Below, one piece after another: positions 425 through 24,063 of a stretch of DNA of 24,117 nt (the first letter of the stretch is position 1; the number at the start of each line of letters is the position of its first letter). A program made the translations under genes and the position numbers. The notes under the pieces are model-generated. The model was not told the DNA's origin. It made no database searches and saw nothing but the letters and a program-made list of their open reading frames with translations. The stretch covers positions 1 to 24,117 of the IMG/VR virus record IMGVR_UViG_3300042914_002590, one strand, 5' to 3'. The DNA comes from a virus.

Positions 425-1861
425 TTATGAAGCCTGTACGATGACAAACTGGTTGGCCGCAGCCACCCTCGATCCGCGGTAGGTAATCATCTCCACGTTA
501 TCGTTCATTTGACCTGAAGTTGGGTTCTGAGAACCACCGCCCCACTGCCATACACGAATACCATTTCCTATAGTCCCGCCCTTTGGGGGTTGTTGGTACA
601 TAATGCTGATATTCTTATAAAGCTTGCTCGCATCTTTAGCATCGCGAGTTTCTCCTTGAGGACAGATCATTCCGAAGTTACGGAAGAAGTCTGTAGTAGG
701 AGTAACGCCAGATAAGAACTCGGTATTGAACGGACGATACTTCTTAACCTTGAAGTGGTATCCATCAATGCTGATTGACTTACAACCATAGTTGATAGCA
801 GCCTCTTCAGACTTTTCGTTGTTACCCCAAACCCAAGCACCAGCAGGGAAAGCGGCGAAAAGACCATCGGAGAAGTTTTGGTTTTGATAGATATCCTGAA
901 GCCACATATTCTCACTTGCGCATCCGTTTACGTCCATGATACGAGTGATTTCGTGAAGCTTTGCAATATCTAAGTTACCCGGAGTGTAACCAACTGTTTC
1001 TCCATCAGCAAGTACTTTAGGGATAATACCCTCAGAACCTACTGAAGTAGTTGTAGTCAAACCAGAGTTGTTAACGATATTACCACGCATTAACTTCATC
1101 TCTACATCATCCTTGAAACGGACATTTGATTTTACAAGTCCTTTTAGGGTGAAGAGGGAAGTCCCGGCTTGAGCACCGCCAGCAGGAACATCACCAGAGA
1201 AACCACCTGTGTAATACACTTCGGTCATTTCTGCAAGGTCAGTTGCGCTGAAAGTCTCACGCATTTCAGTGATGGTGTTAGTGTACTTCTCGTCCAATTG
1301 AATCATTGGAGCGTTAGTGTTAGAAGCTTCACCAGCGTCCATAATACCACCAAAGATCAATACATCTGTAGCAAGGAAGCTTCCGCTACCAGCAGATGCT
1401 AAACTTTGAGTAGAGATTTTTGGACGAACTGTGAAAGTGAAAGCAGAAGGAACTGTTGAGTTCACAGTTAAGATTTCACCTTCTACGTTTGTAGAAGCAA
1501 CACGTACAGTTTCACCAATACGCAAAGGAGACTGACTTCCGTTGTTGTAGTGGTAACCAGAAGCCAATTGGAGGGTAATAGTGGCACCAGCAGAAGCGGC
1601 TACGTTAGCATCAGCCTGAACACCAGTAATCAATTTACCACGGTTTTCAAACCAGAAGTAGTCACGGTTTTTAACTTCTTCCATACCTGCGTAAGTAGAC
1701 AACCACCAAGTGAAGTCTTCGCTACCATACTTTTCAACGTAGTTTTTGTAGTACTGAGGTGTCAATAGTTGAAGATCGGACACCAATTGTCTCGTAACAC
1801 CGCCGGTTAAACTTATATTACCCGGCTGAAGGATGTTCGAGGTAGGGATTCCAAGAGCCAT
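425..1861 (-). CDS. major capsid protein
   Basis: A 478-residue protein that should form the icosahedral head shell. The assignment rests on size, on its place after the probable scaffold in a terminase-portal-head gene order, and on the sequence style: an N-terminal arm (LTGGVTRQLVSDLQLLTPQYYKNYVEKYG), central beta-rich domains with many T/S/G residues around residues 75-165, and a C-terminal part with short aromatic-rich strands (MIYQQPPKGGTIGNGIRVWQW). It has no signal peptide or membrane segment. It starts at ATG 1861 after an A-rich leader (AACAAAACAAA) without a Shine-Dalgarno sequence. I cannot name the exact capsid family by eye; an HK97-like fold is expected for a phage with this TerL/portal set, but this is inferred. 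Confidence 0.8.
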   Translation of the reverse strand: MALGIPTSNILQPGNISLTGGVTRQLVSDLQLLTPQYYKNYVEKYGSEDFTWWLSTYAGMEEVKNRDYFWFENRGKLITGVQADANVAASAGATITLQLASGYHYNNGSQSPLRIGETVRVASTNVEGEILTVNSTVPSAFTFTVRPKISTQSLASAGSGSFLATDVLIFGGIMDAGEASNTNAPMIQLDEKYTNTITEMRETFSATDLAEMTEVYYTGGFSGDVPAGGAQAGTSLFTLKGLVKSNVRFKDDVEMKLMRGNIVNNSGLTTTTSVGSEGIIPKVLADGETVGYTPGNLDIAKLHEITRIMDVNGCASENMWLQDIYQNQNFSDGLFAAFPAGAWVWGNNEKSEEAAINYGCKSISIDGYHFKVKKYRPFNTEFLSGVTPTTDFFRNFGMICPQGETRDAKDASKLYKNISIMYQQPPKGGTIGNGIRVWQWGGGSQNPTSGQMNDNVEMITYRGSRVAAANQFVIVQAS

Positions 1862-1894
1862 TTTGTTTTGTTTTTAAATTGAAAAAATTGGTTT

Positions 1895-3112
1895 TTAGCT
1901 GTTCTTCCAAATAAATTCAATCTGCTTGTCTCGGTCTGAACGCTGATCTGGGTTGAAAGTGTTTTGGGCTGTCCGGGAAGTCACGGTTACGTTGCTCGTT
2001 TTCTTGATGTGTTCAGCAAGCCTCTTGGCTGCCGCATCATTAACGAATTTTTGATTTACTCGGCCTTCACTATTTAGAAGTGCCAAATCTTTAACAACCT
2101 GTTGGGTGTTAATCTCGTAACCTCCATTCGCGTCAGGCTTTAACCACCTTTCAGCAAGCAGAACATTAGCGTCAAAATTAGAGTCTGCAAATCTTTCCAA
2201 TTGCGTAGCGACCGCGCTTCTTTCCTCATCTGACACGGCGTAAGATAACGGTATTTCAACTTCCTCGTCTTTCACCGAAACCGAAAAGCCATCAAACGAT
2301 TTTAAGGCGGACTGCGCATTTTGTTTGAAAGAGTTTACCAAAGCCGATTGAGCTTCCAATTCTTCTTGGGTAGGCTCGTAGTTTTGATTAGCTCCTTCAA
2401 ATTGTATATCTGGTAAAATAAGCTCACTTTTATACTTCTCCAGTTCGGGACGAGCAAGTTTCGCCTCAATGAACATTTCTGTTTCAATGTCCTTAACTTG
2501 GCTTTCCCACGACTGAAGGCGTTCTTGATATTCCTCATCAGACTCAATATCCTTTTGGAAGGGCTTAGAGGGAATACCAAATTGTTTATTAAACTTATAT
2601 TCTATCTCGCTCGATGTCAGGTCTTTGTACTTCTGCTGCATATTAAGCTTAATAATCTCAGAAGCGGTTGCCTGATTGAGGTCTGAAGAAGAAAGTCTAT
2701 CAATCTTTTTCTTTTGATCAAGGAAGGAGTACAAGTCATCTTCTTTGCCCTCTTGTAAGAGCTTGAAGAATTTTGCACTCTGTTCGTTGGCAAATTCAAT
2801 ATCTGCCTTTGTGCTTGCGTTTTCGCGAAGCTTTCTTAGTTCTTCTATTTCTGCTTTTGCGGCTTCTGCGCTTTCCCATCCAAACTGTCCCTTTAACCAC
2901 TCATCTGCATCTACTATTTCTTCTTCGTATTCTTCTTGTGTGTCGGGGGAAGATGTGGGAGTCTGTTCTGTTTGCGTAGCGGATTCTTGTTGTTGTAATG
3001 GATTGTCACTCCATGCGTTATCCGAAAATGGATTAAATTGCACATTTGATTGTGCATTTTCTTGTACAGATTCTTGTACTTGCTCTTGTGTGTTGTTTTG
3101 TGTTTCTGACAT
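1895..3112 (-). CDS. probable head scaffolding protein
   Basis: A 405-residue, strongly acidic and Gln-rich protein lying immediately upstream of the capsid gene in the same operon, the usual place for a scaffold. The N-terminal 65 residues are low complexity (Q/E/N/S/T; several QENAQ/QESVQ-like units, then an EEYEEEIVDADEWL acidic stretch). Residues from about 75 to 190 are rich in charged heptad-like helix (AKAEIEELRKLRENAS, KYKSELI). Scaffolds build the procapsid and leave the mature head. No protease signature is visible. The function is inferred from position and composition, not from a recognised domain. Confidence 0.6.
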   Translation of the reverse strand: MSETQNNTQEQVQESVQENAQSNVQFNPFSDNAWSDNPLQQQESATQTEQTPTSSPDTQEEYEEEIVDADEWLKGQFGWESAEAAKAEIEELRKLRENASTKADIEFANEQSAKFFKLLQEGKEDDLYSFLDQKKKIDRLSSSDLNQATASEIIKLNMQQKYKDLTSSEIEYKFNKQFGIPSKPFQKDIESDEEYQERLQSWESQVKDIETEMFIEAKLARPELEKYKSELILPDIQFEGANQNYEPTQEELEAQSALVNSFKQNAQSALKSFDGFSVSVKDEEVEIPLSYAVSDEERSAVATQLERFADSNFDANVLLAERWLKPDANGGYEINTQQVVKDLALLNSEGRVNQKFVNDAAAKRLAEHIKKTSNVTVTSRTAQNTFNPDQRSDRDKQIEFIWKNS

Positions 3113-3133
3113 AAAGTCTATTTAGGTTAATAA

Positions 3134-3565
3134 TTAACTCAGCGTTAAGCGATAAATGGTCTTTGCAGCAAGACCAGAAAGCTCTTGAGATCTGTTTTCT
3201 ACATCAAGTAATTTTTTCTCGCAAGCGAATTCGTATAGCTCGTAAGAAAAATCTAGTAATTCTTTAACCAGCTTTACGGAGGATTCGTGGCCACCATACT
3301 TTGGTACGGGTATACGAATTAAAGAACCAAGTCTTTTCCCATCCATATAGCCCATCATTTTTTCTGGGATATCGTCAGAAAAGTCCTCAAGACCTTCGTA
3401 TAATTTACCTAAAGCGTCGTGTTCCCATCCGCCTTTAGTTTGCTGATGAAATTCGTGTGCGGCATCGTGAAAATAGAATAATCTATCACGGATTTCTTCG
3501 GGTGTAAGGGAAGTCTTGGCTTTCGCTTCTTCCCCAGACATTCTGATTTTAGCTGTAATTGCCAT
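3134..3565 (-). CDS. helical phage protein, DUF5856/ferritin-like bundle candidate
   Basis: A 143-residue protein predicted to be mostly alpha helical. The segment around residues 28-65 (FYFHDAAHEFHQQTKGGWEHDALGKLYEG) has the spacing of His, Glu and Gln in two facing helices seen in small Dps/ferritin-like phage proteins annotated as DUF5856. Whether it binds metal is not shown. It begins at ATG 3565, overlapping the previous stop by one base (TAATG), so it is probably translationally coupled to the 50-residue protein upstream. Its place between small basic proteins and the scaffold suggests a head-assembly or virion role; this is inference. Confidence 0.6.
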   Translation of the reverse strand: MAITAKIRMSGEEAKAKTSLTPEEIRDRLFYFHDAAHEFHQQTKGGWEHDALGKLYEGLEDFSDDIPEKMMGYMDGKRLGSLIRIPVPKYGGHESSVKLVKELLDFSYELYEFACEKKLLDVENRSQELSGLAAKTIYRLTLS

Positions 3566-3717: not shown

Positions 3718-4049
3718 TTCTGTTCTTTTTTATAATCCTTATAATCTTTCATTGCATCTTTTTTAACCTCCCCCTTTTTCCAACTACCAAAAGAAAACTT
3801 CTCCGCCTTCTTCTTATTTTTAAACTCAAAAACCTCATTTCTCTTATACGCCTCTTCAATGCTTTGCGGAACATAGCTACCCTCTTTGTTTATTGGCCTA
3901 ATTGTTGGCGCAACAAGATATTTGGGCTTCCCTTTTTTATCTTCAGATTCCCACAGGCCCATAAGGTGCGTTTCCCTGTTTTCGGTTGGCGCATAACCCT
4001 CCCTAATCTCGCGGGCCCTTTTTTTATTATTTTTTATTTTGAGCTTCAC
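3714..4049 (-). CDS. small basic protein in head operon
   Basis: A 111-residue Lys-rich protein (MKLKIKNNKKRAREIREGYA...). A central stretch, THLMGLWESEDKKGKPKYLVAPTI, looks like a small beta hairpin, and the C-terminus is highly basic (MKDYKDYKKEQK). It overlaps both neighbours by four bases (ATGA at 4046-4049 and at 3714-3717), so the cluster is translationally coupled. I do not recognise a named domain. Small basic proteins at this place in phage operons may be packaged with DNA, but nothing here proves it. Confidence 0.75.
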   Translation of the reverse strand: MKLKIKNNKKRAREIREGYAPTENRETHLMGLWESEDKKGKPKYLVAPTIRPINKEGSYVPQSIEEAYKRNEVFEFKNKKKAEKFSFGSWKKGEVKKDAMKDYKDYKKEQK

Positions 4050-4255
4050 TTCTTCCCCGTTAATACGTTTTTCTTAAATAAGGCACGCTTTTTAGCCAAA
4101 GGGCCCATCTTGCCCTCTTCCGCTGCCTTCATCTTACCAGCAGGGATTTTCTCATCCTTCTTGACACCAAGCTGAGCGCGAAGTGCGCCTGCCTTAAACT
4201 CAATAGGCTTCTGGCCCTTCTTTTTTACCTTGAGTTTTACAATTTTCCTTTTCAT
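4046..4255 (-). CDS. small basic protein, possible nucleic-acid binder
   Basis: A 69-residue protein with about one third Lys/Arg. The start reads MKRKIVKLKVKKKGQKPIEF, followed by KAGALRAQLGVKKDEKIPAGKMKAAEEGKMGPLAKKRALFKK split by several Gly/Pro turns. The middle part (GALRAQLGVKKDEKIPAGKM) recurs in small phage virion-region proteins. Its stop overlaps the next start by ATGA. Charge suggests DNA contact, for example inside the head. Function unproven. Confidence 0.75.
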   Translation of the reverse strand: MKRKIVKLKVKKKGQKPIEFKAGALRAQLGVKKDEKIPAGKMKAAEEGKMGPLAKKRALFKKNVLTGKK

Positions 4256-4258: not shown

Positions 4259-4612
4259 TTAACAGATTTTGTAGAGTCGTACAAGCGCTTTTGTAACGGT
4301 TACAGAGGTTCCAGAAAGCTGAAGGAAGCGTCCGATGTATCCAAAGCGAACAAGTCCTGATGCTGCGAGGGAAGTCACGGCAGTACCAGACGCTAAGTTT
4401 GTTCCTTGAACAGCAACAAAGTTTGTAGCCGAAACAGCCGAGCCATCAGATACTCCTTCGATAGCACCAGAGTCGTTGGTGTGCAAGAAGTTTACCGTAC
4501 CACTTGGACTTACTAATTGAACGATTGCATAATCAAACCCACCTGTGTCAAGCTTTACGTCTGAGTCTGCGTTAAAGTCATCTGTTACATCTAATACAAT
4601 TTGAACTGACAT
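4259..4612 (-). CDS. small beta-rich head-region protein
   Basis: A 117-residue protein rich in V, T, S, G and A with short alternating strands (VKLDTGGFDYAIVQLVSPSG; RFLQLSGTSVTVTKALVRLYKI). Such composition is typical of beta-sandwich head decoration or head-completion proteins. It sits between portal and scaffold genes together with a 91-residue protein of similar style. No named family recognised. The start has an A/T-rich leader. Confidence 0.7.
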   Translation of the reverse strand: MSVQIVLDVTDDFNADSDVKLDTGGFDYAIVQLVSPSGTVNFLHTNDSGAIEGVSDGSAVSATNFVAVQGTNLASGTAVTSLAASGLVRFGYIGRFLQLSGTSVTVTKALVRLYKIC

Positions 4613-4913: not shown

Positions 4914-7340
4914 TTATTGTTCGGGAAGTGGTGGTTGTTCCTCTGCGGGCATTTCTTCGGGAGCCACTTGTTCCCCCGCACCCTGCTGCATTTGTTGTTG
5001 AGCTGCTGCTTGGGCTGCCTGCATTTGAGCTGCGATTAATTGTTTTTGTTCGTCTGTTGATACTACGGCTGCAAGACCTACGTTTTCCATAACCGCATCA
5101 ATAAGCGGTTTAATTTCTGCTGGAATTGGAAGTCCTGTCTCCATAGATTTTAAATAAGCGGCAGTGGCCATCTGTAGTACGGCGGTTCTATTCTGGGCCT
5201 CGGCGGTCATTTGAGCGCGCTTGATGTCCATCATGCCTTCTTGTTCCTTTGTTGCGCGCTTTTCTTGTTCGGCTACTTGGGCTGCTTGTATTTGCCCCTG
5301 AATCGTCATTTCTTGATTCTGTGCCGCTTTTGTTTGATTATATATAATCATTTTCTTTTGCGCCCTTCTAAATAATGCTTCTGCTAGCTTTACGTCTTCT
5401 TTAGCTACACGCATTAATTGAAAAGGATCTACAAATAGTACAAGGTCTGGGGAAGATGCGAGAGCCTGCTGGAGCATAGCGTCAAATCTCGCAAGCTCGT
5501 ATTGGTCAGGAAGCATCTGTATTCTTGAATTGAATATTCTTCCCGCTACGTCATCCGCCTTCACAATATCTCTATATACGCTTGCGCCGTACTGAACTGA
5601 AGTCTTTAAAAGCGAGGCCACCTTTTTTGCGGTATCAGCCATACAATTAGTGTATGCCCAATAAAAATAATCGGTAGCGTTCTGAGCAACTTGCTCTGCT
5701 GTATTGATATTAGATACCGCAACACGGGGCTGAAGAGCGCTTGAAATCAAGTTTGGATCTTCCCCTAACTCATCTTTTAATATCTGATAATGCTTATCGT
5801 AAAGAAGTATTAAGCCCTGAAGCTGGGACAAAAAGCCAGAATTTGCAAGTTCTGTAATCGGTACAGGTACATTATTCCCTTCGGCGTCACGTCCACGATA
5901 ATAAATGTCTCCAGTTTGATCGTAGAGCTTTTTGACATCAATTGCTTTGTTTCCATCTCCGAGACCATAGTCTATGTTTTGAAGAGCATCCCAATTTACG
6001 GCAGCTCCCGTTGGGCGCATCTTAGCAACAAGTTGTTGCATCTTTAGACGCGCAATAATCATTTGGTCTACGGGTTCCTGTATTTTTTCTGGTATGGCGA
6101 GGGAAGTCATGTCGTAGTTCTGCACCATATAGAATGTGTACGAGAACTCAGCATTACCAATTTCTTTTGGATCTTGGGGGCGAATCATATTCGTTTTAAT
6201 ACCCCACTCAAGCATTGTATTTGTAGGGCGACAGAATACACCGCGATATATATTCCACTTAGTATCAGCAATAACCTTCTCGTTTTCTGACGGTTTTTCT
6301 GGGCGACCTTTCTTTACGATTGTTGATTTGTTCTTTTTTGTTGTAACAACTGTGTAGTCATCACTATCAACAGTCTTAAGCTCAAACTCAATTACGTCAA
6401 TATTCCATTCGTCATAAGGACGAAGGAAGGTTACATTCCATTCGGTCAGCCAAGTAATATTGTCATAAAGTTGAAACTCCTTTGAAAACTGAGCCATCTT
6501 CCAAATTTCCTCTTCGCTTATCTTTCCTCCAAACTCGGTTCCGTATTTTCTACGAAGCTCACTTATCTTATAAGTACGAATTACTCCGCGCCAAGTTGTG
6601 TCGCGGAAGTCGGGATAGCTTGAGTAAGAGTAAAAACAATTTTCAGGCTTCAGCCAATCAACGTGAATTACACCTTGATCATCCATCCAAGTATAAGTTC
6701 CAACAAAACCGCACTCAGCGCTGTCGTGAAGCATCTTCTCTTTCAACACATCAAACCAGCCATTAGAAGAAAGCACATCATTGCAACCAAGTTCATACTG
6801 AATTTCTTCAGGTAGTCTTTGAAATTGAGATTGCCAAAGCTTTAACTCTTCTTTATCTTCTGGAATCTGCTCTGCTTCTGGAAGAATTTGTACGCCAGAC
6901 TCTTGTTGTAATTTCTCAAGTAACTTTCTATTTTCAATAATAAACTCAAGATTTTCGTACTCTTCTTTCTTTTGCTTAGTTGAAATAGAATCAATTGCCG
7001 TCACTTTAATCTTTTCGCTTCTAGCCATCCATCTTCCTACAAGACCAGATATAACGCGATTAACAATGTTAATTGATTGCCAATTGATATTAAGATAATT
7101 AACTTTTCCATTGAACTCAAGCAAGTCTTGGAATTTACTCATTGGTACGCGACCATTTGCATAACCGCGATTTGTTCTCCAGCGAGCATTTCTAACCCAA
7201 AAATAACTTGATATACCACCACGAATAGTGGAGTCAATATATTGTGCTAATCGTTTACCGTAGTTCCAATCGGACTTTTCCTTGATAGTTAATTTATCAA
7301 GCTGAAAAGTTTTAAGGGGTTGCGCGGAATAATCCTGCAT
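4914..7340 (-). CDS. portal protein
   Basis: An 808-residue protein next to the large terminase. It should form the dodecameric ring through which DNA enters the head. The N-terminal 150 residues (YIDSTIRGGISSYFWVRNARWRTNRGYANGR and NYLNINWQSINIVNRVISGLVGRWMAR) match the opening of large portals, where an early helical region is followed by an N-x2-R-x2-S-G-L-V-G stem. The middle has beta-rich wing segments (VDWLKPENCFYSYSSYPDFRD). The C-terminal 130 residues form long Gln/Ala-rich helices (barrel-like) and end in a Pro/Glu/Gln tail. The length is at the high end for portals, like those of podovirus-type and crAss-like phages. Function is firm by position and style; no exact family is claimed. 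Confidence 0.85.
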   Translation of the reverse strand: MQDYSAQPLKTFQLDKLTIKEKSDWNYGKRLAQYIDSTIRGGISSYFWVRNARWRTNRGYANGRVPMSKFQDLLEFNGKVNYLNINWQSINIVNRVISGLVGRWMARSEKIKVTAIDSISTKQKKEEYENLEFIIENRKLLEKLQQESGVQILPEAEQIPEDKEELKLWQSQFQRLPEEIQYELGCNDVLSSNGWFDVLKEKMLHDSAECGFVGTYTWMDDQGVIHVDWLKPENCFYSYSSYPDFRDTTWRGVIRTYKISELRRKYGTEFGGKISEEEIWKMAQFSKEFQLYDNITWLTEWNVTFLRPYDEWNIDVIEFELKTVDSDDYTVVTTKKNKSTIVKKGRPEKPSENEKVIADTKWNIYRGVFCRPTNTMLEWGIKTNMIRPQDPKEIGNAEFSYTFYMVQNYDMTSLAIPEKIQEPVDQMIIARLKMQQLVAKMRPTGAAVNWDALQNIDYGLGDGNKAIDVKKLYDQTGDIYYRGRDAEGNNVPVPITELANSGFLSQLQGLILLYDKHYQILKDELGEDPNLISSALQPRVAVSNINTAEQVAQNATDYFYWAYTNCMADTAKKVASLLKTSVQYGASVYRDIVKADDVAGRIFNSRIQMLPDQYELARFDAMLQQALASSPDLVLFVDPFQLMRVAKEDVKLAEALFRRAQKKMIIYNQTKAAQNQEMTIQGQIQAAQVAEQEKRATKEQEGMMDIKRAQMTAEAQNRTAVLQMATAAYLKSMETGLPIPAEIKPLIDAVMENVGLAAVVSTDEQKQLIAAQMQAAQAAAQQQMQQGAGEQVAPEEMPAEEQPPLPEQ

Positions 7341-14724: not shown

Positions 14725-14878
14725 ATTTTAACGAGTCTTTGATTTGAGAAAGCGCCTGCTGTTTGTCATCTATCTCTTTTGACAGCCAATTAATTAAAAA
14801 TTGCAGCACGTTAGCGCGCTCCTGAAGCTCTCCCTTGCTAAGCTCTTTAACAAGCTTGTCCACGTTAATTTTTTCCAT
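14723..14878 (-). CDS. small helical protein (51 aa)
   Basis: ATG 14878 shares one base with the stop of the LuxR-type gene (TAATG), and the stop is at 14723, directly in the T-tail of the terminator. The protein is MEKINVDKLVKELSKGELQE followed by RANVLQFLINWLSKEIDDKQ, amphipathic helix throughout. As a co-transcribed, translationally coupled partner of a DNA-binding protein, it could be an accessory or antagonist subunit, but no family is recognised. Confidence 0.7.
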   Translation of the reverse strand: MEKINVDKLVKELSKGELQERANVLQFLINWLSKEIDDKQQALSQIKDSLK

Positions 14879-15099: not shown

Positions 15100-15103
15100 A
15101 CCG

Positions 15104-15134
15104 CAAAAATAAGAATTAAAAAGAATTTTACAAA
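15104..15134 (-). promoter_or_regulatory. promoter of the LuxR-type regulator gene
   Basis: On the minus strand TTTG (15134-15131), 19 bases, TATTTTTG (15111-15104): a perfect match to TTTG-N19-TAnnTTTG. The transcription start would fall at or within a few bases of ATG 15099, giving a leaderless or near-leaderless mRNA. Confidence 0.7.
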
Positions 15135-15149
15135 AAAATTTACAATTTA

Positions 15150-15180
15150 TTTGGTTAACCAATTTTTTTATATATTTTTG
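15150..15180 (+). promoter_or_regulatory. rightward promoter with palindromic operator
   Basis: TTTG (15150-15153), 19-base spacer, TATTTTTG (15173-15180): a perfect Bacteroidota promoter pattern pointing to the HNH gene at 15228. The perfect 12-bp palindrome TTGGTTAACCAA (15151-15162) overlaps the -33 box, so a protein bound there would block RNA polymerase. The divergent LuxR-type protein is the obvious candidate. Confidence 0.75.
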
Positions 15181-15227: not shown

Positions 15228-15698
15228 ATGGGCATAGAACAAATAAGAGAATTAAAAAGACAGGCAGGAGTTCCCAAGACTCCTAAAAAATATTCTATTC
15301 CAAAAAAATCGAAAAAGAAATTACAAGAAGAAAAAGAAGACCGCAAGCAAAGAGCAGGAGAGGGTACACAGCTTGTTAAATGGTATAAAGAGCGCCAAAA
15401 AGAAATGGGTGGTAATTGCGCAGAGTGTGGAAAGCTGACCACGACAAAAGTCTATGAGTTAGCCATTCATTCTATTTGCCACCTACTTGCAAAAAGAAAA
15501 ACAGTAGCACCAAGCGTAGCTACTCATTCTAATAATTGGATTGAGCTTTGCCCAGATTGCCACTACAAGTTTGATAATAGTGCGTGGGAAGATATAGCAA
15601 AGTGGAAGTGTTGGCCAGAAATTAAAGAAAGATTACAAATACTTTACGGAGATTTGGCGGATGATGAACGCCGACACTTCCCAAACATAGCACTATGA
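15228..15698 (+). CDS. HNH-type zinc-finger nuclease or recombination protein
   Basis: A 156-residue protein, first gene of the rightward arm. The N-terminal 60 residues are Lys-rich. A treble-clef zinc site is visible: CAEC (about residues 64-67) and CPDC (about 107-110). Between them is IHSICHLLAK with the first motif His, then a conserved SNNWIELCPDCHYKFDN, where the final CHxxFD block is the HNH-N/H part. This layout resembles HNH endonucleases and NinG-like recombination proteins. It would cut or process DNA early in infection. The stop overlaps a 27-residue frame by ATGA. Family firm, target unknown. Confidence 0.8.
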   Translation: MGIEQIRELKRQAGVPKTPKKYSIPKKSKKKLQEEKEDRKQRAGEGTQLVKWYKERQKEMGGNCAECGKLTTTKVYELAIHSICHLLAKRKTVAPSVATHSNNWIELCPDCHYKFDNSAWEDIAKWKCWPEIKERLQILYGDLADDERRHFPNIAL

Positions 15699-16485: not shown

Positions 16486-16693
16486 ATGGAGCAAATAGTC
16501 ATTAATGGGAATAACATTGAATTATTAAAGAATTATCCTGATAATTACTTTGATTCCGTGGTTACTGACCGAATACTCAAAAATAGCAGAAGCAAGAATA
16601 GGTAATTGGGTAGAAGAAAAAGAAAAAACTCCAAAACAAAAAGAAAATAGCTCGGACGAAAAAATATATTTTAAACAAACCTCTTTATTCTAA
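16486..16693 (+). pseudogene. remnant of a phage DNA N6-A/N4-C methyltransferase
   Basis: The frame from ATG 16486 reads MEQIVINGNNIELLKNYPDN, then YFDSVVTD, exactly the N-terminus of a D-type DNA methyltransferase up to the point where (N/D)PPY would follow. Instead it runs out of frame to a TAA at 16603. In another frame of the same stretch, residues TEYSKIAEARIGNWVEE begin right at the junction (about 16564-16572) and run on to FKQTSLF and a TAA at 16691. EYxKIAEARIxxW and a final QxSLF are the usual methyltransferase C-terminus. About 28 N-terminal and 42 C-terminal residues remain, and the whole catalytic core is missing. The simplest reading is one internal deletion, perhaps between copies of TGACC. 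Assembly error is an alternative. Confidence 0.8.
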
Positions 16694-17828: not shown

Positions 17829-18081
17829 TAGCGTTGCGGGAAGATATGACGAAGCGTCACCAATTCCCCAACACATAGAAAAAATAAACGCTCTTTATGA
17901 AGAGGGAAATAGAATTACTTATTATACAGCAAGAGGTCAGCGTTCTGGAAAAAATTATTCTGATTTAACCTATAATCAGCTAATAGGGTGGGGTTGTAAA
18001 TTTCACGACTTAATAATGAACCATAAACCAGCATACGATTTAATGATATGCGACAAAACAAAAAGGATTGAAGAGCTATGA
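17791..18081 (+). CDS. HAD-family phosphatase, small capsule/LPS type
   Basis: A 96-residue minimal HAD hydrolase starting at GTG 17791, which leaves the first strand intact. YVDIDGTICDS holds the nucleophile D6 and D8 (DxDGT). TYYTARGQRSG gives motif II (T at about 45), and DLMICDKT contains the last acidic motif. No cap domain is present. This type is found in sugar loci as the phosphatase on a sugar phosphate, parallel to GmhB, which removes the 7-phosphate in heptose synthesis. The gene overlaps the next start by four bases (ATGA at 18078-18081). Confidence 0.8.
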   Translation: MNIYVDIDGTICDSVAGRYDEASPIPQHIEKINALYEEGNRITYYTARGQRSGKNYSDLTYNQLIGWGCKFHDLIMNHKPAYDLMICDKTKRIEEL

Positions 18082-18827
18082 ACTTTTTAGTTATAGGAGA
18101 AAAATGTAGAGACGTTTTTGTGTATGGGGAAGTTACAAGGCTTAGCCCAGAAGCACCCGTTCCTATATTTAAACCAAACCGAATTACAGAAAATGGGGGT
18201 ATGGCGCAAAATGTCTACAATAATCTTTTTTCATTAATAGAAAAAAAATCAAGCATCATTGGTCATTTTTGCCACGAAGAAATAAAGAAGACAAGATATG
18301 TTGACGATAAGTCAAACCACTACTTCATACGAATTGATGAAAATGACACAGCACGACCAATAGAGTTTACCTCGCATTTAAAAAAAATTATTTATAGTGC
18401 CGATTGTATTATAATTTCAGATTATGATAAAGGCTATTTATCATTAAATGATATATATCAAATTTGTCAAGAAAAAAGAGATGGCGCTATTGTTTTTTTA
18501 GATACCAAAAAGAAACTTACTCCTGTAATATTTGATCAGATTGATTTTGTTAAATTCAACGAATCGGAGTATGAGAAAAATAAAATGTTTGCGGAAGGGT
18601 ATCTTGATAAAGTTATCATTACAAAGGGTGGTAATGGAGCAACCCATAACAACCAAGACTTCCCCAGCACAAAAAAGGTAACCATAGACGTAAGTGGCGC
18701 AGGAGATACGTTTTTAGCCGTATTAGCCTATTATTATATGCAAAGAAGGTCGATAAACTTCGCCATAGAAAAAGCTAACGAAGCGGCCTCAAAAGTGGTG
18801 TCAGAAAGGGGTGTTTCGGTTATTTAA
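18078..18827 (+). CDS. HldE N-terminal-like PfkB sugar kinase
   Basis: A 249-residue ribokinase-fold kinase. It opens MNFLVIGEKCRDVFVYGEVT with RLSPEAPVPIF (residues 21-31), which is the signature of the heptose-7-phosphate kinase half of HldE. ENGGMAQNVYNNL (38-50) is the GG motif for substrate binding, and DVSGAGDTF (204-212) holds the anion hole and the catalytic Asp. VSERGVSVI at the C-terminus matches the VGKxGTxxV end. It is about 60 residues shorter than usual, the lid region being compact. It should phosphorylate the 1-position of a heptose-7-phosphate-like sugar. The bacterial enzyme is often fused to the nucleotidyltransferase; here they are split by three genes. Confidence 0.88.
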   Translation: MNFLVIGEKCRDVFVYGEVTRLSPEAPVPIFKPNRITENGGMAQNVYNNLFSLIEKKSSIIGHFCHEEIKKTRYVDDKSNHYFIRIDENDTARPIEFTSHLKKIIYSADCIIISDYDKGYLSLNDIYQICQEKRDGAIVFLDTKKKLTPVIFDQIDFVKFNESEYEKNKMFAEGYLDKVIITKGGNGATHNNQDFPSTKKVTIDVSGAGDTFLAVLAYYYMQRRSINFAIEKANEAASKVVSERGVSVI

Positions 18828-19000
18828 AAAATTTTTTTGGAGGTTTGGGAAGTTGTGGTGTATATTCGTGTCGCTAAGTTTAAGTTTAATGAAATTTAAT
18901 AATAATATATTTAAAATACTGGCTCGACCTGTAGTGGTTCCATCTCTTCATTGAGCTTGAACTTAGCACACTATGGGCGGGCCTACTTATTTTTTATTTT
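18828..19000 (+). ncRNA. non-coding stretch with candidate structured RNA
   Basis: The 173-base gap holds no reading frame. GTGTCGCTAAGTTTAAG (18868-18884) and CTTGAACTTAGCACAC (18956-18971) can pair over 16 base pairs with one bulged C and one G-U, closing a loop of 71 bases. Inside it, GGCTC (18921-18925) can pair with GAGCT (18953-18957, sharing its last two bases with the outer stem), and GACC/GGTT makes a small hairpin. A U-rich run (18980-19000) follows. A perfect dispersed-motif copy, GGGAAGTTGTGG (18847-18858), stands 9 bases before the first arm. It could be a leader RNA, an attenuator, a small RNA or a replication element. Confidence 0.45.
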
Positions 19001-19226: not shown

Positions 19227-20198
19227 ATGGCTAAAGACTCTTCTTTTTATTTTTCGCATGATTATAATGCCAGAAATGACGCAAAAATTAAAAAACTTTT
19301 ACGCACTCACGGTATGCTTGGATATGGTATATTTTGGGCTATTGTAGAGGACTTATATAACAATGCGAACGCATTGCATTTGGATTACGAAAGCATTGCT
19401 TTTGACCTAAGGGCGGATTCCGAAGTTGTAAAAAGCGTAATTTCTGATTTTGAATTATTTGAAATAAAAGACATAATTTTTGCATCAACTTCTGTTCAAA
19501 GAAGATTAGATCAAAGAAATACTAAATCTATAAAAGCAAGAGAATCAGCAAATAAGAGATGGAATGTGGAAGAAATTAATGCGAACGCATTGCGAACGGA
19601 ATCCGAACCCAATGCTATAAAGGAAAGGAAAGGAAAGGAAATAAAGGAAAGGAAAGAAAAAGAAGAAGAAAATAATCTCCCGTTTTCTGAATTTAACAAC
19701 ATACAAAATTTTAATGGCCTTGTGAGAAGGGGGCTAACGCCGCCCCCTTCAACCCCGGCTGATGTTATTTTGCCTGATAAAAAATTCAGAGCCTCTGATT
19801 TTCCTGAAGGAATTTCGGATAATCAAATTCAAAAACTTGTAAATGCTGTTAAAATCGTAAAATCAAAAGAAATTTCAGCATCCGATGTTAGGCAACTTTG
19901 GGATTTGTTTTTAGAGACAGAGCTTTGTAAAAAAACTTACGCAGGCAAAGAAGCGGTATTTAGCCATTTTTTCAACTACGTCAAAAAACAACCATTTTCA
20001 AAAGATACAAAAAGAGTTAAAAAAGATGAATCGATTCTAAGGCCATTTGCAGGCGAAATAAGAGGCTTAAAATTTAGTGGGGACTTTACCCTATGCGAGA
20101 TGGAAGATGGAACCTTGGTCAAATTAACGGCCAATCAGAAGGATTTAGCCAAAAGCAACCTTCTAAGTCCGCAAAATGTTAAAAAAACGGCAGATTAA
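19227..20198 (+). CDS. replication initiator-like protein, DUF4373/Lin1244 type
   Basis: A 323-residue protein. Residues 6-80 match the DUF4373 (Lin1244/Lin1753) winged-helix domain: FYFSHDYNARNDAKIKKLLR, then HGMLGYGIFWAIVEDLYNN and LDYESIAFDLR. This domain opens phage replication initiators that load the helicase. A charged, low-complexity linker (about residues 130-150, many E/K/R) follows, and a helical C-terminal part. The primase-helicase gene lies next, as in other phages. Inside the gene are repeated GCGAACG units and a purine tract, which could be the origin (see findings). The stop is 19 bases before the primase start. Confidence 0.8.
   Translation: MAKDSSFYFSHDYNARNDAKIKKLLRTHGMLGYGIFWAIVEDLYNNANALHLDYESIAFDLRADSEVVKSVISDFELFEIKDIIFASTSVQRRLDQRNTKSIKARESANKRWNVEEINANALRTESEPNAIKERKGKEIKERKEKEEENNLPFSEFNNIQNFNGLVRRGLTPPPSTPADVILPDKKFRASDFPEGISDNQIQKLVNAVKIVKSKEISASDVRQLWDLFLETELCKKTYAGKEAVFSHFFNYVKKQPFSKDTKRVKKDESILRPFAGEIRGLKFSGDFTLCEMEDGTLVKLTANQKDLAKSNLLSPQNVKKTAD
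19362..19598. repeat. candidate iterons inside the initiator gene
   Basis: The 16-mer AATGCGAACGCATTGC occurs exactly at 19362-19377 and again at 19578-19593, and GCGAACG recurs once more at 19592-19598. The unit is a near palindrome (CAATGCG-AA-CGCATTG at the first site). Both encode the peptide NANAL, which is partly expected from the protein family. Confidence 0.5.
19618..19674 (+). repeat. purine tract of tandem AGGAA units
   Basis: About 57 bases on the plus strand are almost entirely purine, with five-base AGGAA units at least four times in a row, then a second block. It encodes the ERKGKEIKERKEKEEE linker. Such tracts can be unstable or form triplexes, and this one lies 20 bases after the candidate iterons. 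Confidence 0.7.
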
Positions 20199-20217
20199 TA
20201 TTGAATTTTTATATTTT

Positions 20218-22053
20218 ATGTTTAATTGGGAAAAAGTAGGGATTGATATATCAAAGGTGCGTGGCGGCAAAGCGTTTTGCCCAAAGTGCCACCACACCAG
20301 AAACGATAAAAGGGATAGATCTCTTTCTGTTAATTTACAAAATGGAGTTTATAATTGCCATTACCACGGCTGCGAATTTAGCGGTTCTGTAGCCGAAAGA
20401 CCACAAAAGATTATGAAAAAGGACTTTACGCCACCAGTTCCCCGACCACAAAAAGTATCGGATAAAGTTCTTGCTTGGTTTGAGAATGAGAGAAAAATAA
20501 GCAATAATACACTTCTTCGTATGGGTATTACCGAAAACGAAGAGTGGTTCTTTGATGGCAAAAAAATGGCTATTTGCTTTAACTACTTTAGAGATGAAAA
20601 GCTTGTAAATATAAAATTTAGAACAGCAGACAAAAAGTTTAAAATGTCTGCTGGTGCAGAGCTTATACCATACAACCTTGATGCAGCAAAAGGAGAAAAA
20701 GAGCTTTATTGGGTAGAGGGGGAGATTGATTTACTCACCTGTATAGAGTGTGGAATATACAATGTTGTGTCTGTACCTAATGGCGCTTCTGGTGGAGAGG
20801 GTGCAAAACTTGAGTATATTGATAACTCTTGGAGAGAAATTCAACACATTGAAAAGCATATTATTTGTGTTGATAATGATGAAGCGGGTAAAAAATTAAG
20901 AGATGCTCTATCTTTTAGGCTTGGTGCGGAAAAGTGTTGGTATATAACATACCCAGATGAAGCGGTTGTTAACGATAAGGGAGAGGTTAGAACTTGTAAA
21001 GATTTAAACGAGGTTCTTGTGAGCCTTGGTAAGGATAAGGTTAGGGAAGTCGTGGCGCAACTTGAGCAACCAAAAATTGCGGGAGTACATTATGTAGAGG
21101 ATATAGCTAATGATATATTTGATGTTTATGCTAATGGTAGAGTTGTCGGCGAAACAACACACCTTCCAGAGTTTGATAAGATTTTTAAATGGAAAAAGGG
21201 TGATATAAACTTAGTTTTTGGTCACGGAAATTTTGGTAAAACACAGTTTTGGATTCATTTAATGGTTATTAAGTCAATTTATGACGGATGGAGGTGGGCT
21301 ATATTCTGTCCCGAAAACTTTCCTCCAACGGATTTTTATATCGATGTCGTTGAAATGTACACAGGAAAACATATTGACGATAGAATGGCTAATAAAATGA
21401 GTGCTGATGAATTGAATGAAGCATTAGAGTTTTTCCAAAAACATTTTATATATGTTTATCCTGATGAAGCGCAGAATCTCGAAAACATACACGCGATATT
21501 TAGAAGTCTTGTTTTAAAACACGGTATTGATGGCGTCTTGATTGATCCTTGGAATCAGCTTGACCATATTATTGATAGTAGAGAAGATTTGTATTTATCT
21601 AAGGCGCTAAAAGAGGTTAAAAGGTTTGCTTTGTTAAATGGAATATCTTATAACATAATTGCACACCCTAAGACAGTTCCACCAAACAAGGATAACGAGT
21701 TGCCTAAACTACAAGTGTTTCATATTTCTGGTGGCCCAACTTGGAGAGCAAAAATTGATAATATACTTTCTGTAGAAAGGCCTGATTGGTATAAAGACAA
21801 GCAAAGTGGATGGGTGCAGGTTGAAACGCATAAAATAAAAAGAGTTAGAACAGGGGGTTCATTAGGCACTTGTGATTTTGATTATTATTTAAGAACTTCA
21901 AGGTATCAAGAAAGAGGAAGAGATGTTTTTGTTTGCGATCCAAAGAGGGCCGCAAAGGTTAAGTCTTCCCACAACCCAGAAAATATAACACAGGCAGAGA
22001 TAAGCAATAATTGGCTACCTTATAAAGATGGGGATACTGAGGCACCGTTTTAA
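20218..22053 (+). CDS. primase-helicase (zinc, TOPRIM and RecA-type helicase)
   Basis: Start ATG 20218 (611 residues) is preferred over 20176 because MFNWEKVGI fits the family start and does not overlap the preceding gene. Order: zinc finger at 21-52 (C21-x2-C24 ... C47/H48 ... C52), TOPRIM with E168 in VEGEIDLL and D219/D221 in CVDNDEAGK, then a RecA-like helicase with Walker A GHGNFGKT (335-342) and a Walker B-type VLIDPWNQLDH about 110 residues later. A further marker near the C-terminus is HISGGPTWRAKIDN. It unwinds DNA and makes primers at the replication fork, as T7 gp4 does. The initiator gene lies just upstream. Confidence 0.9.
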   Translation: MFNWEKVGIDISKVRGGKAFCPKCHHTRNDKRDRSLSVNLQNGVYNCHYHGCEFSGSVAERPQKIMKKDFTPPVPRPQKVSDKVLAWFENERKISNNTLLRMGITENEEWFFDGKKMAICFNYFRDEKLVNIKFRTADKKFKMSAGAELIPYNLDAAKGEKELYWVEGEIDLLTCIECGIYNVVSVPNGASGGEGAKLEYIDNSWREIQHIEKHIICVDNDEAGKKLRDALSFRLGAEKCWYITYPDEAVVNDKGEVRTCKDLNEVLVSLGKDKVREVVAQLEQPKIAGVHYVEDIANDIFDVYANGRVVGETTHLPEFDKIFKWKKGDINLVFGHGNFGKTQFWIHLMVIKSIYDGWRWAIFCPENFPPTDFYIDVVEMYTGKHIDDRMANKMSADELNEALEFFQKHFIYVYPDEAQNLENIHAIFRSLVLKHGIDGVLIDPWNQLDHIIDSREDLYLSKALKEVKRFALLNGISYNIIAHPKTVPPNKDNELPKLQVFHISGGPTWRAKIDNILSVERPDWYKDKQSGWVQVETHKIKRVRTGGSLGTCDFDYYLRTSRYQERGRDVFVCDPKRAAKVKSSHNPENITQAEISNNWLPYKDGDTEAPF

Positions 22054-22342: not shown

Positions 22343-22570
22343 ATGGCAATAGTTAGAAATATACAAAACAATAATTTATATCGATATCTTGGAGATAATA
22401 AATATCGAAATATTATGACTGGCGTAGAAGGAGAAATTGATGAAGCTGTAGCAAGTCGGATATTTAAGATAAACTTGGAGTTAACAGATCTGTGCGAGAA
22501 CTTCCCCAACATAGAGATTATGATTAACAAGTTAAAACTTAAATCAGATAAAAATGGAACCGACAATTAA
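22343..22570 (+). CDS. conserved small phage protein
   Basis: A 75-residue protein starting MAIVRNIQNNNLYRYLGDNK, with NIMTGVEGEIDEAVASRIF and NLELTDLCENFPNIE after it. This is a recurrent phage protein: the R-N-x-Q-N-N-N-L-Y-x-Y-L and TGVEGEV blocks are typical. It lies in replication regions; function unknown. It overlaps the next gene by 17 bases. Confidence 0.75.
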   Translation: MAIVRNIQNNNLYRYLGDNKYRNIMTGVEGEIDEAVASRIFKINLELTDLCENFPNIEIMINKLKLKSDKNGTDN

Positions 22571-22778
22571 AAGGTTTGCTAAATGGGTTATTGAAAAATA
22601 TGAAATCAGTATACCCGAAAAGGTATTAGAAGAAATGTATAACGATTCTCGTAAGGAGATAGTAAATGCGTGGGAAGACGGCGCACTTGCAGGAGAATCG
22701 TATATGTTTTGGATAAATGGAAATGAATATTTTGATAGAACTTACTTAAACGATTTAAACGATTCCGGCTCTCGTTAA
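22554..22778 (+). CDS. small acidic protein
   Basis: A 74-residue protein; helices near residues 4-40 (IKRFAKWVIEKYEISIPEKV) and an acidic, aromatic C-terminal part. The start overlaps the gene before it by 17 bases, so the two are co-translated. A dispersed motif copy in the gene gives the peptide NAWEDGA. No named family. Confidence 0.65.
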   Translation: MEPTIKRFAKWVIEKYEISIPEKVLEEMYNDSRKEIVNAWEDGALAGESYMFWINGNEYFDRTYLNDLNDSGSR

Positions 22779-22790: not shown

Positions 22791-23348
22791 ATGTCTGGTC
22801 TTATTAAAAAAACAGAAGGGGTTACTTACTTAAACATCAAAGAAGGGAAATTGGTGTCAAAGAAAAATGGTGTCCTCGAAACCTTTGACGGCGTTAAAGG
22901 TACAATTTCAAAGATTGAGTTCATTAAGGACGAGTATGAGGGTAAGCCTTACGAAAAGGCGGCTATCCATATTAGTTACATTGATGAAAACTTTATCTTA
23001 CAAATGCACGTTGATAGCGGGTATTTTAGAAACTTTTGTAATGCGTTGAAAAACGGCAACCCAAAAGAAGAGGTTTATATCCAGCCATCATTTAAAAAAG
23101 ATGAAAGGGGTAAAAGTATGGCAGGATGCTTTGTTTCTCAAAATGGAAAATTCTTAAAGCACGCGCACACCAAAGATGCTCCGGGAGATCTTCCCCAGCT
23201 TGAAACAGTAACCTTCAAAGGAGAAACGCGCTACGATAACTCAAAGCAAATTGAGTACTGGAAGAACTGGATATCCAAGACCTTTAATGGAGAGGCTACA
23301 CAAACACAAGAACAAGAAGAAGACGGTGCTACAGATTTACCCTTTTAA
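22791..23348 (+). CDS. single-stranded DNA-binding protein
   Basis: A 185-residue protein with an OB-like beta-rich core (residues about 1-115; TYLNIKEGKLVSKKNGV, GTISKIEFIKDEYEGKPYEK, FRNFCNALKNGNP) and an acidic tail ending DGATDLPF. That DLPF end is the usual partner-docking tip of bacterial SSB and T7 gp2.5-like proteins. It would coat ssDNA during phage replication and recruit the primase-helicase and recombination proteins. A copy of the dispersed motif lies in GDLPQL (about 23190). The stop shares one base with the next start. Confidence 0.8.
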   Translation: MSGLIKKTEGVTYLNIKEGKLVSKKNGVLETFDGVKGTISKIEFIKDEYEGKPYEKAAIHISYIDENFILQMHVDSGYFRNFCNALKNGNPKEEVYIQPSFKKDERGKSMAGCFVSQNGKFLKHAHTKDAPGDLPQLETVTFKGETRYDNSKQIEYWKNWISKTFNGEATQTQEQEEDGATDLPF

Positions 23349-23550: not shown

Positions 23551-23598
23551 TTACCGCCGAAACCCGACCAAGAGTCCCGTTATTAAATGGTGCGGTAA

Positions 23599-23748
23599 TT
23601 AGTTTGCTTTACGGAACTCAATTCCAATAAAGACCTTTGTAGAATCACGAAGGATTTTTCCGTCCAGATATTGTTTCTGAACAGTTACGCAAGATGTCAG
23701 GGAAGTCGCAATGCAGGTAAGTACGGCAATTGATAAAAACTTTTTCAT
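23599..23748 (-). CDS. small lipoprotein
   Basis: A 49-residue frame, ATG 23748 to TAA 23599. MKKFLSIAVLTCIATSLTSC is a lipoprotein signal peptide: Lys pair, hydrophobic core, then LTSC lipobox with Cys20 as the lipid-attachment site. The mature part is 29 residues, VTVQKQYLDGKILRDSTKVF with a basic end. A short lipoprotein in a phage could be a spanin subunit, a superinfection-exclusion factor or a moron. It is transcribed with or just after the small HTH gene. It is well below the usual length cut-off, but the signal peptide is convincing. Confidence 0.75.
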   Translation of the reverse strand: MKKFLSIAVLTCIATSLTSCVTVQKQYLDGKILRDSTKVFIGIEFRKAN

Positions 23749-23757
23749 ATTACAAAG

Positions 23758-23925
23758 TTACTCCATTATTAGAATGTAGTGGGAAGTCTTGCCACCCGAT
23801 TTATAGCAATATTTAACTCCCGGAAGGGGTTTGTTGTTTTTAAGACGCTTAATAATTGCCTGCCTTGTTAGGCCGTGAAGTTTGGCGTAGTTGGTTACAG
23901 ATATAACAGTTCCCTCTTTCTTCAT
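23758..23925 (-). CDS. small HTH DNA-binding protein
   Basis: I choose the internal ATG 23925 (55 residues) over the longer frame from 24021, because the upstream part is hydrophobic and runs through a promoter region. Residues 5-30 (GTVISVTNYAKLHGLTRQAI and IKRLKNNKPLPGVK) form a helix-turn-helix like an excisionase or MerR-type recognition unit. The Gly-Gly-Lys-Thr-Ser-His-Tyr block near the end comes from a dispersed motif copy. Upstream repeats suggest it represses its own promoter. It could switch the lipoprotein gene as well. Confidence 0.7.
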   Translation of the reverse strand: MKKEGTVISVTNYAKLHGLTRQAIIKRLKNNKPLPGVKYCYKSGGKTSHYILIME

Positions 23926-23933
23926 AAGTTTAC

Positions 23934-23974
23934 AATTGACAACAAAAATAACTAATAAGTTGTAAATTGACAAC
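23934..23974 (-). promoter_or_regulatory. promoter with two operator repeats for the HTH gene
   Basis: On the minus strand GTTG (23974-23971), 20-base spacer, TATTTTTG (23950-23943) is a Bacteroidota-type promoter 17 bases ahead of ATG 23925. The plus-strand 10-mer AATTGACAAC occurs exactly at 23934-23943 and 23965-23974, 31 bp (about three helical turns) apart. One repeat covers the -33 box and the other lies just past the -7 box, as expected for an autorepressor's operators. Confidence 0.65.
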
Positions 23975-23979
23975 CCTAG

Positions 23980-24008
23980 TGCATGAAATTTGCGTAAAGT
24001 TTCATGCA
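23980..24008. repeat. inverted repeat with 9-bp arms
   Basis: TGCATGAAA (23980-23988) and TTTCATGCA (24000-24008) are perfect inverted copies around an 11-base spacer. It stands 55 bases upstream of the HTH gene start and is outside any accepted gene. It could be another regulator's operator. Confidence 0.7.
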
Positions 24009-24034
24009 GATTTGTGTCCATAAGCCCTTATAAG

Positions 24035-24063
24035 CCCCCCCCTATCCCCCCACTTCCCCCCCC
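24035..24063. repeat. three long C runs (G runs on the minus strand)
   Basis: C8 (24035-24042), C6 (24046-24051) and C8 (24056-24063) in 29 bases, in an otherwise A/T-rich region. The minus strand could fold as a G-quadruplex, since each long run can give two G-tracts. It contains GGGGAAGTGGGG, a form of the dispersed motif. Homopolymers of this length are also prone to slippage or sequencing error. Confidence 0.75.

Follow-up and report, generated by a model that had tools for sequence, protein, structure and literature searches.

Why should a viral genome carry the same short, asymmetric sequence dozens of times, within genes as well as between them? The question is raised by the IMG/VR record IMGVR_UViG_3300042914_002590, whose complete 24,117 bases are the stretch of DNA analysed here (the window), and in which an earlier note, made from the letters alone, had described a dispersed 12-bp motif with a GGGAAG core. 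The observation as a whole is confirmed and is stronger than first stated. Within what we searched, the motif is confined to one clade of uncultured phages, where it is spread over whole genomes on both strands and where neighbouring copies tend to face in opposite directions. We propose, with a probability of about 0.36, that a dimeric protein specific to this clade, and probably encoded by the phage, binds the copies genome-wide and so organises the DNA.

The excess holds under each of the models used to calculate it. GGGAAG occurs 45 times in the window (23 on the plus and 22 on the minus strand), the first time at 218-223 on the minus strand; the earlier note had rightly seen the excess, though it counted 42 cores (23 and 19) and let their range begin at 1156. 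Its expectation of about six agrees with the mononucleotide value (6.1), while dinucleotide shuffles give 9.9 (largest of 100 shuffles, 17). For the strict 12-mer, GGGAAGWNNYGG, the 16 copies reported before were found again, against 0.12 expected and at most 1 in 100 dinucleotide shuffles. No 6-mer of the window is in greater excess than GGGAAG, whether judged by a first-order model or by synonymous-codon shuffling. In 500 synonymous shuffles of 36 open reading frames (ORFs) of the window, the mean number of cores was 13.7 (standard deviation 3.3, maximum 25) as opposed to the 41 present, and that of full motifs 0.41 (maximum 3) as opposed to 14. A second count of this kind gave 40 cores versus 12.8 in the window, 87 versus 24.8 in the relative G006, 131 versus 30.8 in G430 and 94 versus 23.9 in G428. 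Since synonymous shuffles preserve the proteins, an artefact of protein sequence was rejected, and the argument of the earlier note that codon use does not account for the copies is supported: no shuffle came near 40 cores. The copies do lie on both strands, in genes and in non-coding DNA, and in different codon frames, as described before, but the frames are used unevenly: codon position 2 is where 28 of the 41 cores start, 15 of them sense and 13 antisense.

Expectation-maximisation on ten sequences, the window and those of nine relatives, of which three were truncated to 20 kb, yielded the motif GGGAA(G)WYRYGgY, with 17.8 bits and 2.6 sites per kb. The core is preceded by KKYKG at -5 to -1 and, before that, by a T-rich flank that may partly be a by-product of antisense sites in purine-rich coding strands. 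With the full matrix, the window holds 50 sites above 10 bits, 37 with a GGGAAG core and 13 variants; 8 of the 45 GGGAAG cores fail, and the core at 24053-24058, in a C-rich run close to the contig end, is a doubtful site. When the matrix is trained only on those parts of the relatives that are not collinear with the window, it still scores 49 sites of the window above 10 bits, and 7 when reversed, compared with 5.9 in Markov simulations (maximum 15 of 60) and 10.3 with permuted matrices (maximum 22 of 60). Two gaps of 2.1-2.2 kb (15.7-17.8 and 18.9-21.0 kb) noted previously are real for GGGAAG, but among matrix sites the longest gap, 2,156 bases, is no longer than chance would give (P 0.37); the second gap contains a strong GGGAAC variant at 20442, and the first spans several genes, including one for which the five relatives compared have no homolog.

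The same motif recurs throughout the close relatives of this phage. A terminase scan led to 20 of them, which together with the window form what we call group A, and all 20 carry the 12-mer; the five longest records, of 42-61 kb, each have 24-29 copies (0-2 reversed). Between 13 and 54 matrix sites score above 12 bits in each of the 20 relatives, as opposed to 0-3 reversed; in the 9-kb record G015 the 12-mer and its reverse occur once each, and matrix sites 13 versus 0 times. Strict copies lie on both strands in 18 of the 20, and on one strand in G007 (9 of 9) and G015 (1 of 1), in whose loci, L007 and L015, GGGAAG nevertheless occupies both strands. A wider terminase scan revealed a sister group, B, of five records with terminases 78-79% identical and a large excess of GGGAAG, in which the core is the same and the flanks are altered, GGGAA(G/T)TSNTG, at about 4 sites per kb at a fixed prior. 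Recurrence in relatives, including at non-homologous positions, is thus supported. No excess was found in records with terminase identities of 69%, 69%, 46% and 22%, nor in three cultured phages, namely elemo phage (50 kb of 59.7 kb covered), Tenacibaculum phage JQ and Cellulophaga phage Calle_1 (50 kb of 73 kb). Of 80 viral contigs with a DUF6321 protein in common, all seven from A or B contain the motif; one further contig, L182, passed the screen only marginally (GGGAAG 3 versus 4.1), and in the other 72 (664 kb) GGGAAG occurs 197 times versus 275.5 expected, with 69 matrix sites versus 53 reversed.

The host of the window phage is probably a member of the Bacteroidota, judging from the terminase and from a promoter-like sequence. 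Window proteins match the PHROG families of terminase large subunit, portal and capsid, and among 50,697 phage records the terminase had 85 matches, 68 Flavobacterium and 15 Cellulophaga phages among them, at about 28% identity among the matches listed. Between two divergent window genes we noticed by eye TTTG...TAnnTTTG, which we take to be the promoter type of Bacteroidota. An Rfam scan of the window gave no matches. In 13 genomes (twelve Bacteroidota and one SAR86) GGGAAGWNNYGG is not abundant, with 161 copies in total versus 98 reversed, 3-28 per genome versus 2-14 in the reversed control, and a density about a hundred-fold under that of the phages; some genomes show a mild excess (G022, 28 versus 9; G029, 26 versus 11). 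The tighter pattern GGGAAGTCRYGG occurs 0-7 times per genome in 395 Bacteroidota genomes from across the phylum, which by eye is not above the control overall. A host-wide element is not supported in the genomes sampled, which are 407 distinct ones (G027 is in both samples) and may not include the true host. The motif is confined to one phage clade within what was searched, and we found no description of it in the open-licence literature (titles and abstract openings, with most subscription papers outside).

Neighbouring sites prefer opposite orientations, a new finding of this study that the earlier note had missed, as it had the frame preference and the dialect change in group B. Only 249 of 699 neighbours in six genomes share an orientation, and permutation of orientations at 12 bits gives P ≤0.0166 in all ten A and B genomes (for the window alone, at 8 bits, P is 0.12, which is not significant). 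Inverted pairs, convergent and divergent alike, are enriched 1.4-2.1-fold at 30-100 bp, same-way pairs reach about half of their expected number at distances under 60 bp in A and B alike and, in A only, under 100 bp, and past about 200 bp the pair correlation shows no consistent effect. Of the 83 6-mers testable in group A, none has a higher inverted fraction than GGGAAG (0.75 versus a median of 0.40). With the matrix, the fraction of same-way neighbours lies under that of all 60 column-permuted matrices in five of five sets, also when fibre genes are left out. The nine inverted pairs of the window closer than 100 bp are all within ORFs, none at gene ends. The flanks of partners are not extra complementary (identity 4.77 versus 5.06 at random in A, 3.95 versus 4.08 in B), and with no complementarity beyond the core we reject hairpins of RNA or single-stranded DNA and repeats resembling repetitive extragenic palindromes.

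This pairing bears on the possibility, which we consider unlikely, of Chi-like sites, at which a nuclease that processes DNA ends, either the AddAB/RecBCD of the host or an exonuclease of the phage, would be stopped or tamed so that ends are protected and recombination begins. As with Chi, the motif is G-rich, asymmetric, over-represented and present genome-wide on both strands; phages can be Chi-enriched, according to the available text of PMC3784561; an exonuclease gene, recognised by its PHROG match, is present in two of the four B genomes examined; and divergence along the genome is mosaic. Compared with Chi, the motif is longer and, at 2-4 per kb, about ten-fold denser: that text gives roughly 0.2 Chi sites per kb in E. 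coli, as well as in phages that lack a recombinase of their own. It is also abundant neither in the 13 genomes nor in the 395 Bacteroidota genomes, and inverted pairs at 30-100 bp are not predicted by Chi. Clean breakpoints are few and overall not closer to sites, except for one tract in L004. In this single case, a divergent tract in a near-identical relative (window 9058-9428) ends near the sites at 9042 and 9418, though its left breakpoint may be anywhere in 8527-9058. In G430 (L087, 445-2048, minus strand), the PHROG exonuclease stands beside two genes that by eye resemble those of a RusA and a single-strand annealing protein, and all three are also found in G433.

Individual sites are conserved in the short term and replaced in the long term, with density maintained, as shown by their retention within groups and the few positions common to G006 and G430. 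GGGAAG is kept at the homologous place in 59-72% of cases between the window and G006 (27 of 38), G003 (28 of 39), G009 (20 of 30) and G013 (19 of 32), as opposed to 24-31% for permuted 6-mers of equal composition in the same four comparisons, and between G006 and G009 in 27 of 59 (46%) versus 41 of 200 (20%). G006 and G430, both with high density, have 9 of 53 positions in common (permuted 6-mers, 13 of 180). Lost cores are one base off in 9 of 11 cases between the window and G006 and in 6 of 10 between the window and G009, and in 5 of 11, 9 of 20 and 6 of 32 in other A pairs; such one-base differences leave point mutation and exchange undistinguished. Density also varies with the class of gene (G016 left out and orphan ORFs under 100 residues dropped, here and in the strand counts above 11 bits): in A it is 2.56 per kb in genes common to A and B, 1.93 in group-specific genes and 0.48 in orphans (2 sites in 4.2 kb), and in B the drop is modest, from 3.19 in conserved to 2.68 in group-specific and 1.90 in orphan genes (20 sites in 10.5 kb). 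Sites therefore seem to accumulate once a gene has arrived.

Accumulation of this kind recalls the DNA uptake sequences (DUS) of Neisseria and the uptake signal sequences (USS) of Pasteurellaceae, and it could be that motif-bearing donor DNA is favoured and copies are gained by biased recombination, although we regard such a self-spreading exchange sequence as improbable. Many copies, enrichment in core genes, dialects and inverted repeats are common to both: the available text of PMC2397512 describes core-gene enrichment, rarity in new genes and inverted repeats for the DUS, and the title of PMC3630211 speaks of DUS dialects. Against this stand the absence of such abundance from every sampled genome, the motif belonging to a phage clade and not to a known competent bacterium, and the window pairs, which are genic and do not mark gene ends; mismatch counts at lost sites do not decide the matter.

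We propose instead that one DNA-binding factor of this phage clade, most likely phage-encoded, reads asymmetric sites genome-wide. The factor would bind as a dimer or higher oligomer, favouring two opposite sites within about 20-100 bp, and at two to four sites per kb it could bridge or loop neighbouring DNA along the whole genome, which may organise or shield the phage chromosome while it replicates or awaits packaging. From the roles suggested in the earlier note, the binding site of a nucleoid-like protein fits best, whereas a host-wide element is not supported in the genomes sampled and a one-strand nick or packaging signal conflicts with sites on both strands. Taken further, and more tentatively, the clade may possess its own sequence-specific chromatin, in which a phage-encoded dimer occupies hundreds of dialect-specific inverted-pair sites largely regardless of gene direction; to our knowledge, such a sequence-directed viral nucleoid has no counterpart among tailed phages. 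If this is true, phage genomes hold a layer of information beyond genes, in which protein sites override codon choice, and the clade would be a test case for motif-driven selection on entire viral genomes. It would also reveal the way in which the DNA of a tailed phage is organised, protected or exchanged in the cell. With the rule of inverted pairs, the different dialects of A and B and only a few candidate proteins, the reader should be within reach of ordinary biochemistry.

The leading candidate for this reader, judged from sequence comparison, is a small helix-turn-helix (HTH) protein of GerE/LuxR type with putative binding to the motif; an HNH endonuclease encoded by its divergent neighbour is the second (Table 1). 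Both genes are present in six of six A and four of four B genomes, whereas the six phages without the motif (G432, G434, G435, elemo, Calle_1 and JQ, several of these records being partial) have neither, and neither was found in a further 80 contigs, of which the DUF6321 scan supplied 73 and other sources seven. DUF6321, DUF5856, a Lin1244-type replication protein and a glycosyltransferase follow the same pattern across A, B and the motif-lacking set. A close-relative scan with the GerE-type protein returned A and B records only (14 of 14), and its presumed recognition helix, which we place by assumed analogy with LuxR-type proteins, differs between A and B at a few places, in line with the dialect change. 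The HNH protein is 31-32% identical between A and B despite the unchanged core, and its predicted structure (predicted local distance difference test, pLDDT, 55) was too poor to be used; a scan with the HNH alignment gave at least one locus and carries little weight. DUF6321 was rejected as reader since it occurs in 72 contigs without motif excess, and the Dps-like DUF5856 since homologs occur in 6 of 80 contigs without the motif; a protein of HU/IHF type (PF00216) was found in none of the ten A and B records, which are possibly incomplete, and a host HU/IHF might act instead.

Several results weigh against our proposal. Groups A and B form one clade, so that the co-occurrence of gene and motif is one evolutionary event, common to several genes, and amounts to a correlation within that clade; an HTH monomer of 73 residues normally reads far below 18 bits; and GGGAA/TTCCC is missing from the divergent region between the GerE-type and HNH genes, a possible spot for an autoregulator, in eight of ten genomes. 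The top 6-mers of other phages reach shuffle z values of 8.8-10.0, above the 8.1 of the window, although they show no alternation between neighbours. Conservation is weaker within B (43 of 96 versus 81 of 264 and 55 of 107 versus 96 of 264; 45-51% versus 31-36%), where same-way pairs are not depleted at 60-100 bp and where, by its inverted fraction (0.56), the 6-mer alone comes 13th of 115. In just three of five sets is the inverted fraction at 30-100 bp larger with the real matrix than with any of the 60 permuted ones; the exceptions are the window alone (8 of 9 pairs) and G430 without fibre genes. Pair spacing shows no convincing helical phasing: convergent A pairs up to 110 bp are weakly phased (p about 0.01 at 10.5 bp, with many tests made), and same-way pairs are phased in both groups at some periods, whereas inverted B pairs are not at 10.5.

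Orientation relative to genes is a further point of this kind. Sites above 11 bits are close to balanced between sense and antisense (231:259 in A, 338:340 in B), but this near-balance nets opposite leanings, and there is thus some tie to gene direction or codon constraint. Counting in ORFs of at least 80 residues, in genomes that are partly homologous, we found 42:85 for A sites above 20 bits and 36:66 for A strict 12-mers, 79:34 for weak A sites (8-12 bits, many of them chance matches), 260:181 for GGGAAG in B and 34:57 for B sites of 16-20 bits. Strict 12-mers lean the other way in B (23:12), and since the strict motif leans in opposite directions in the two groups, the leanings probably reflect codon or composition constraint and not a transcription signal. 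The latter was rejected, as there is no consistent strand preference, though the leanings vary with score.

The strand counts also bear on stoperator-like dispersed operators, by which a repressor or silencer on many asymmetric sites would block transcription, and which we judge distinctly unlikely. The L5-type stoperators of cluster A mycobacteriophages are likewise asymmetric sites of about 13 bp with many copies throughout the phage genome and similar but not identical motifs between relatives, and they are read by an HTH protein (PMC9283540, PMC6550527, in their available text); the strongest A sites lean about 2:1 towards antisense. However, the same text places the more than 20 stoperator copies in promoters and short intergenic spaces, predominantly in one orientation to transcription, unlike the motif described here, which has no consistent orientation and stands at 2-4 sites per kb in inverted pairs. 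Its density in intergenic or uncalled DNA is matched by that in conserved genes (2.96 versus 2.56 per kb in A, 2.88 versus 3.19 in B). We saw no integrase in those gene lists that we read through, and a two-pattern terminase scan of genome contigs gave no relative.

If the HNH protein, for example, were the reader, the sites could be those of a phage nickase or base-modifying enzyme, which we hold to be very improbable. The HNH gene does track the motif across the A, B and motif-lacking genomes and the 80 contigs, and dispersed consensus motifs at localised nicks are known in T5-, phiKMV- and tf-like phages (available text of PMC3517423). Those nick sites are one-stranded and few, 8-14 per genome in the tf/LUZ24 group according to the same text, whereas here about 100-300 sites per 42-71 kb record lie on both strands, nicks in opposite strands within 100 bp would endanger the genome, and the core is unchanged between HNH proteins as different as those of A and B. 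None of these known systems, whether stoperators, Chi, DUS or nick sites, fits fully.

Least probable to our mind are replication signals, in the sense of primase or initiator sites. The Lin1244-type replication protein, present in all six A and four B genomes, was not detected in the motif-lacking set, which speaks for this reading; there is no single origin-like cluster of sites, however, and the densest 5-kb stretches (22-28 sites) belong to the large fibre-like ORF in G006 and in G016, and to the terminal part of G003. Primase was rejected as reader, as the primase-helicase of the window shares only 41-44% identity with its counterparts in relatives that have the same motif. This gene (20176-22053, plus strand) appears to have been replaced, as the copies in G006, G003 and G013 are 84-93% alike.

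The positions of 46 of the 50 matrix sites and of the two candidate reader genes are collected in Table 1.

Table 1. Candidate reader genes and motif sites in the window (sites at 5089, 5127 and 8308, all of 10-11 bits, and the doubtful one at 24058 are omitted).
Feature	Position	Strand	Remarks
Candidate reader, small GerE/LuxR-type HTH protein	14878-15162	-	GerE E 4.8e-6; about 73 amino acids from likely start 15099
Second candidate, HNH endonuclease	15228-15698	+	PHROG HNH matches; divergent neighbour of GerE-type gene
Motif site	1156-1168	+	strict 12-mer, 22.0 bits
Motif site	1975-1987	+	strict 12-mer, 23.0 bits
Motif site	2947-2959	+	strict 12-mer, 27.9 bits
Motif site	3508-3520	+	strict 12-mer, 22.3 bits; inverted pair with 3534
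Motif site	3522-3534	-	16.8 bits; partner of 3508
Motif site	4045-4057	-	11.9 bits
Motif site	4369-4381	+	strict 12-mer, 22.2 bits
Motif site	4923-4935	+	strict 12-mer, 25.2 bits; inverted pair with 4975
Motif site	4963-4975	-	GGGAAC core, 20.9 bits; partner of 4923
Motif site	5450-5462	+	18.2 bits
Motif site	5752-5764	-	12.9 bits
Motif site	6101-6113	+	21.5 bits
Motif site	7441-7453	+	strict 12-mer, 23.1 bits
Motif site	8439-8451	+	21.3 bits
Motif site	8549-8561	-	GGGAAA core, 17.8 bits
Motif site	9042-9054	+	17.4 bits; inverted pair with 9107
Motif site	9095-9107	-	GGGAAA core, 14.0 bits; partner of 9042
Motif site	9350-9362	-	19.9 bits; inverted pair with 9418
Motif site	9418-9430	+	GGGAAC core, 22.0 bits; partner of 9362
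Motif site	10001-10013	-	22.2 bits; inverted pair with 10052
Motif site	10052-10064	+	GGGAAA core, 12.9 bits; partner of 10013
Motif site	11663-11675	+	GGGAAT core, 21.4 bits; inverted pair with 11686, true hairpin here
Motif site	11674-11686	-	GGGAAT core, 11.8 bits; partner of 11663
Motif site	11726-11738	-	strict 12-mer, 20.8 bits
Motif site	12495-12507	+	strict 12-mer, 21.1 bits
Motif site	13283-13295	+	strict 12-mer, intergenic, 24.5 bits
Motif site	13585-13597	-	13.2 bits
Motif site	14069-14081	-	strict 12-mer, 22.3 bits; inverted pair with 14115
Motif site	14115-14127	+	15.4 bits; partner of 14081
Motif site	14258-14270	-	strict 12-mer, 10.9 bits
Motif site	15263-15275	-	GGGAAC core, 22.0 bits
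Motif site	15586-15598	+	17.7 bits; inverted pair with 15682
Motif site	15670-15682	-	strict 12-mer, 16.5 bits; partner of 15586
Motif site	17838-17850	+	22.2 bits; inverted pair with 17868
Motif site	17856-17868	-	GGGAAT core, 20.3 bits; partner of 17838
Motif site	18127-18139	+	17.5 bits
Motif site	18652-18664	-	strict 12-mer, 18.9 bits
Motif site	18847-18859	+	strict 12-mer, intergenic, 26.1 bits
Motif site	20430-20442	-	GGGAAC core, 25.1 bits; within second gap of the earlier note
Motif site	21044-21056	+	strict 12-mer, 22.5 bits
Motif site	21958-21970	-	17.3 bits
Motif site	22494-22506	-	17.8 bits
Motif site	22672-22684	+	14.4 bits
Motif site	23183-23195	-	15.8 bits
Motif site	23700-23712	+	intergenic, 16.5 bits; same-orientation neighbour 23781 at 81 bp, contrary to pairing rule
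Motif site	23781-23793	+	21.5 bits

Some further features of these genomes were observed. The DUF6321 protein of the window (10935-11249, minus strand) is small and basic and is 91% identical between A and B, and its relatives occur in at least 480 of 600 viral-contig stretches examined. The DUF5856 protein, encoded in the structural block (3134-3565, minus strand), has a predicted four-helix fold (pLDDT 84), for which the best solved matches in Foldseek are Dps proteins and mini-ferritins (probability 1.00, best E 0.01, none below 0.001, template modelling score about 0.6). The motif-lacking relative G432 (L094, L095) has an excess of its own over synonymous shuffles, of CCGCCA/GCCGCC, whose orientation does not alternate. 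By eye, the plus strand of the window at about 16487-16690 resembles a DNA methyltransferase gene of which both ends are present and the middle is absent, and the calcineurin-like phosphoesterase of G016 (L033, 8544-10292, minus strand) carries an intein-like insertion, with 582 amino acids versus 366 in G006.

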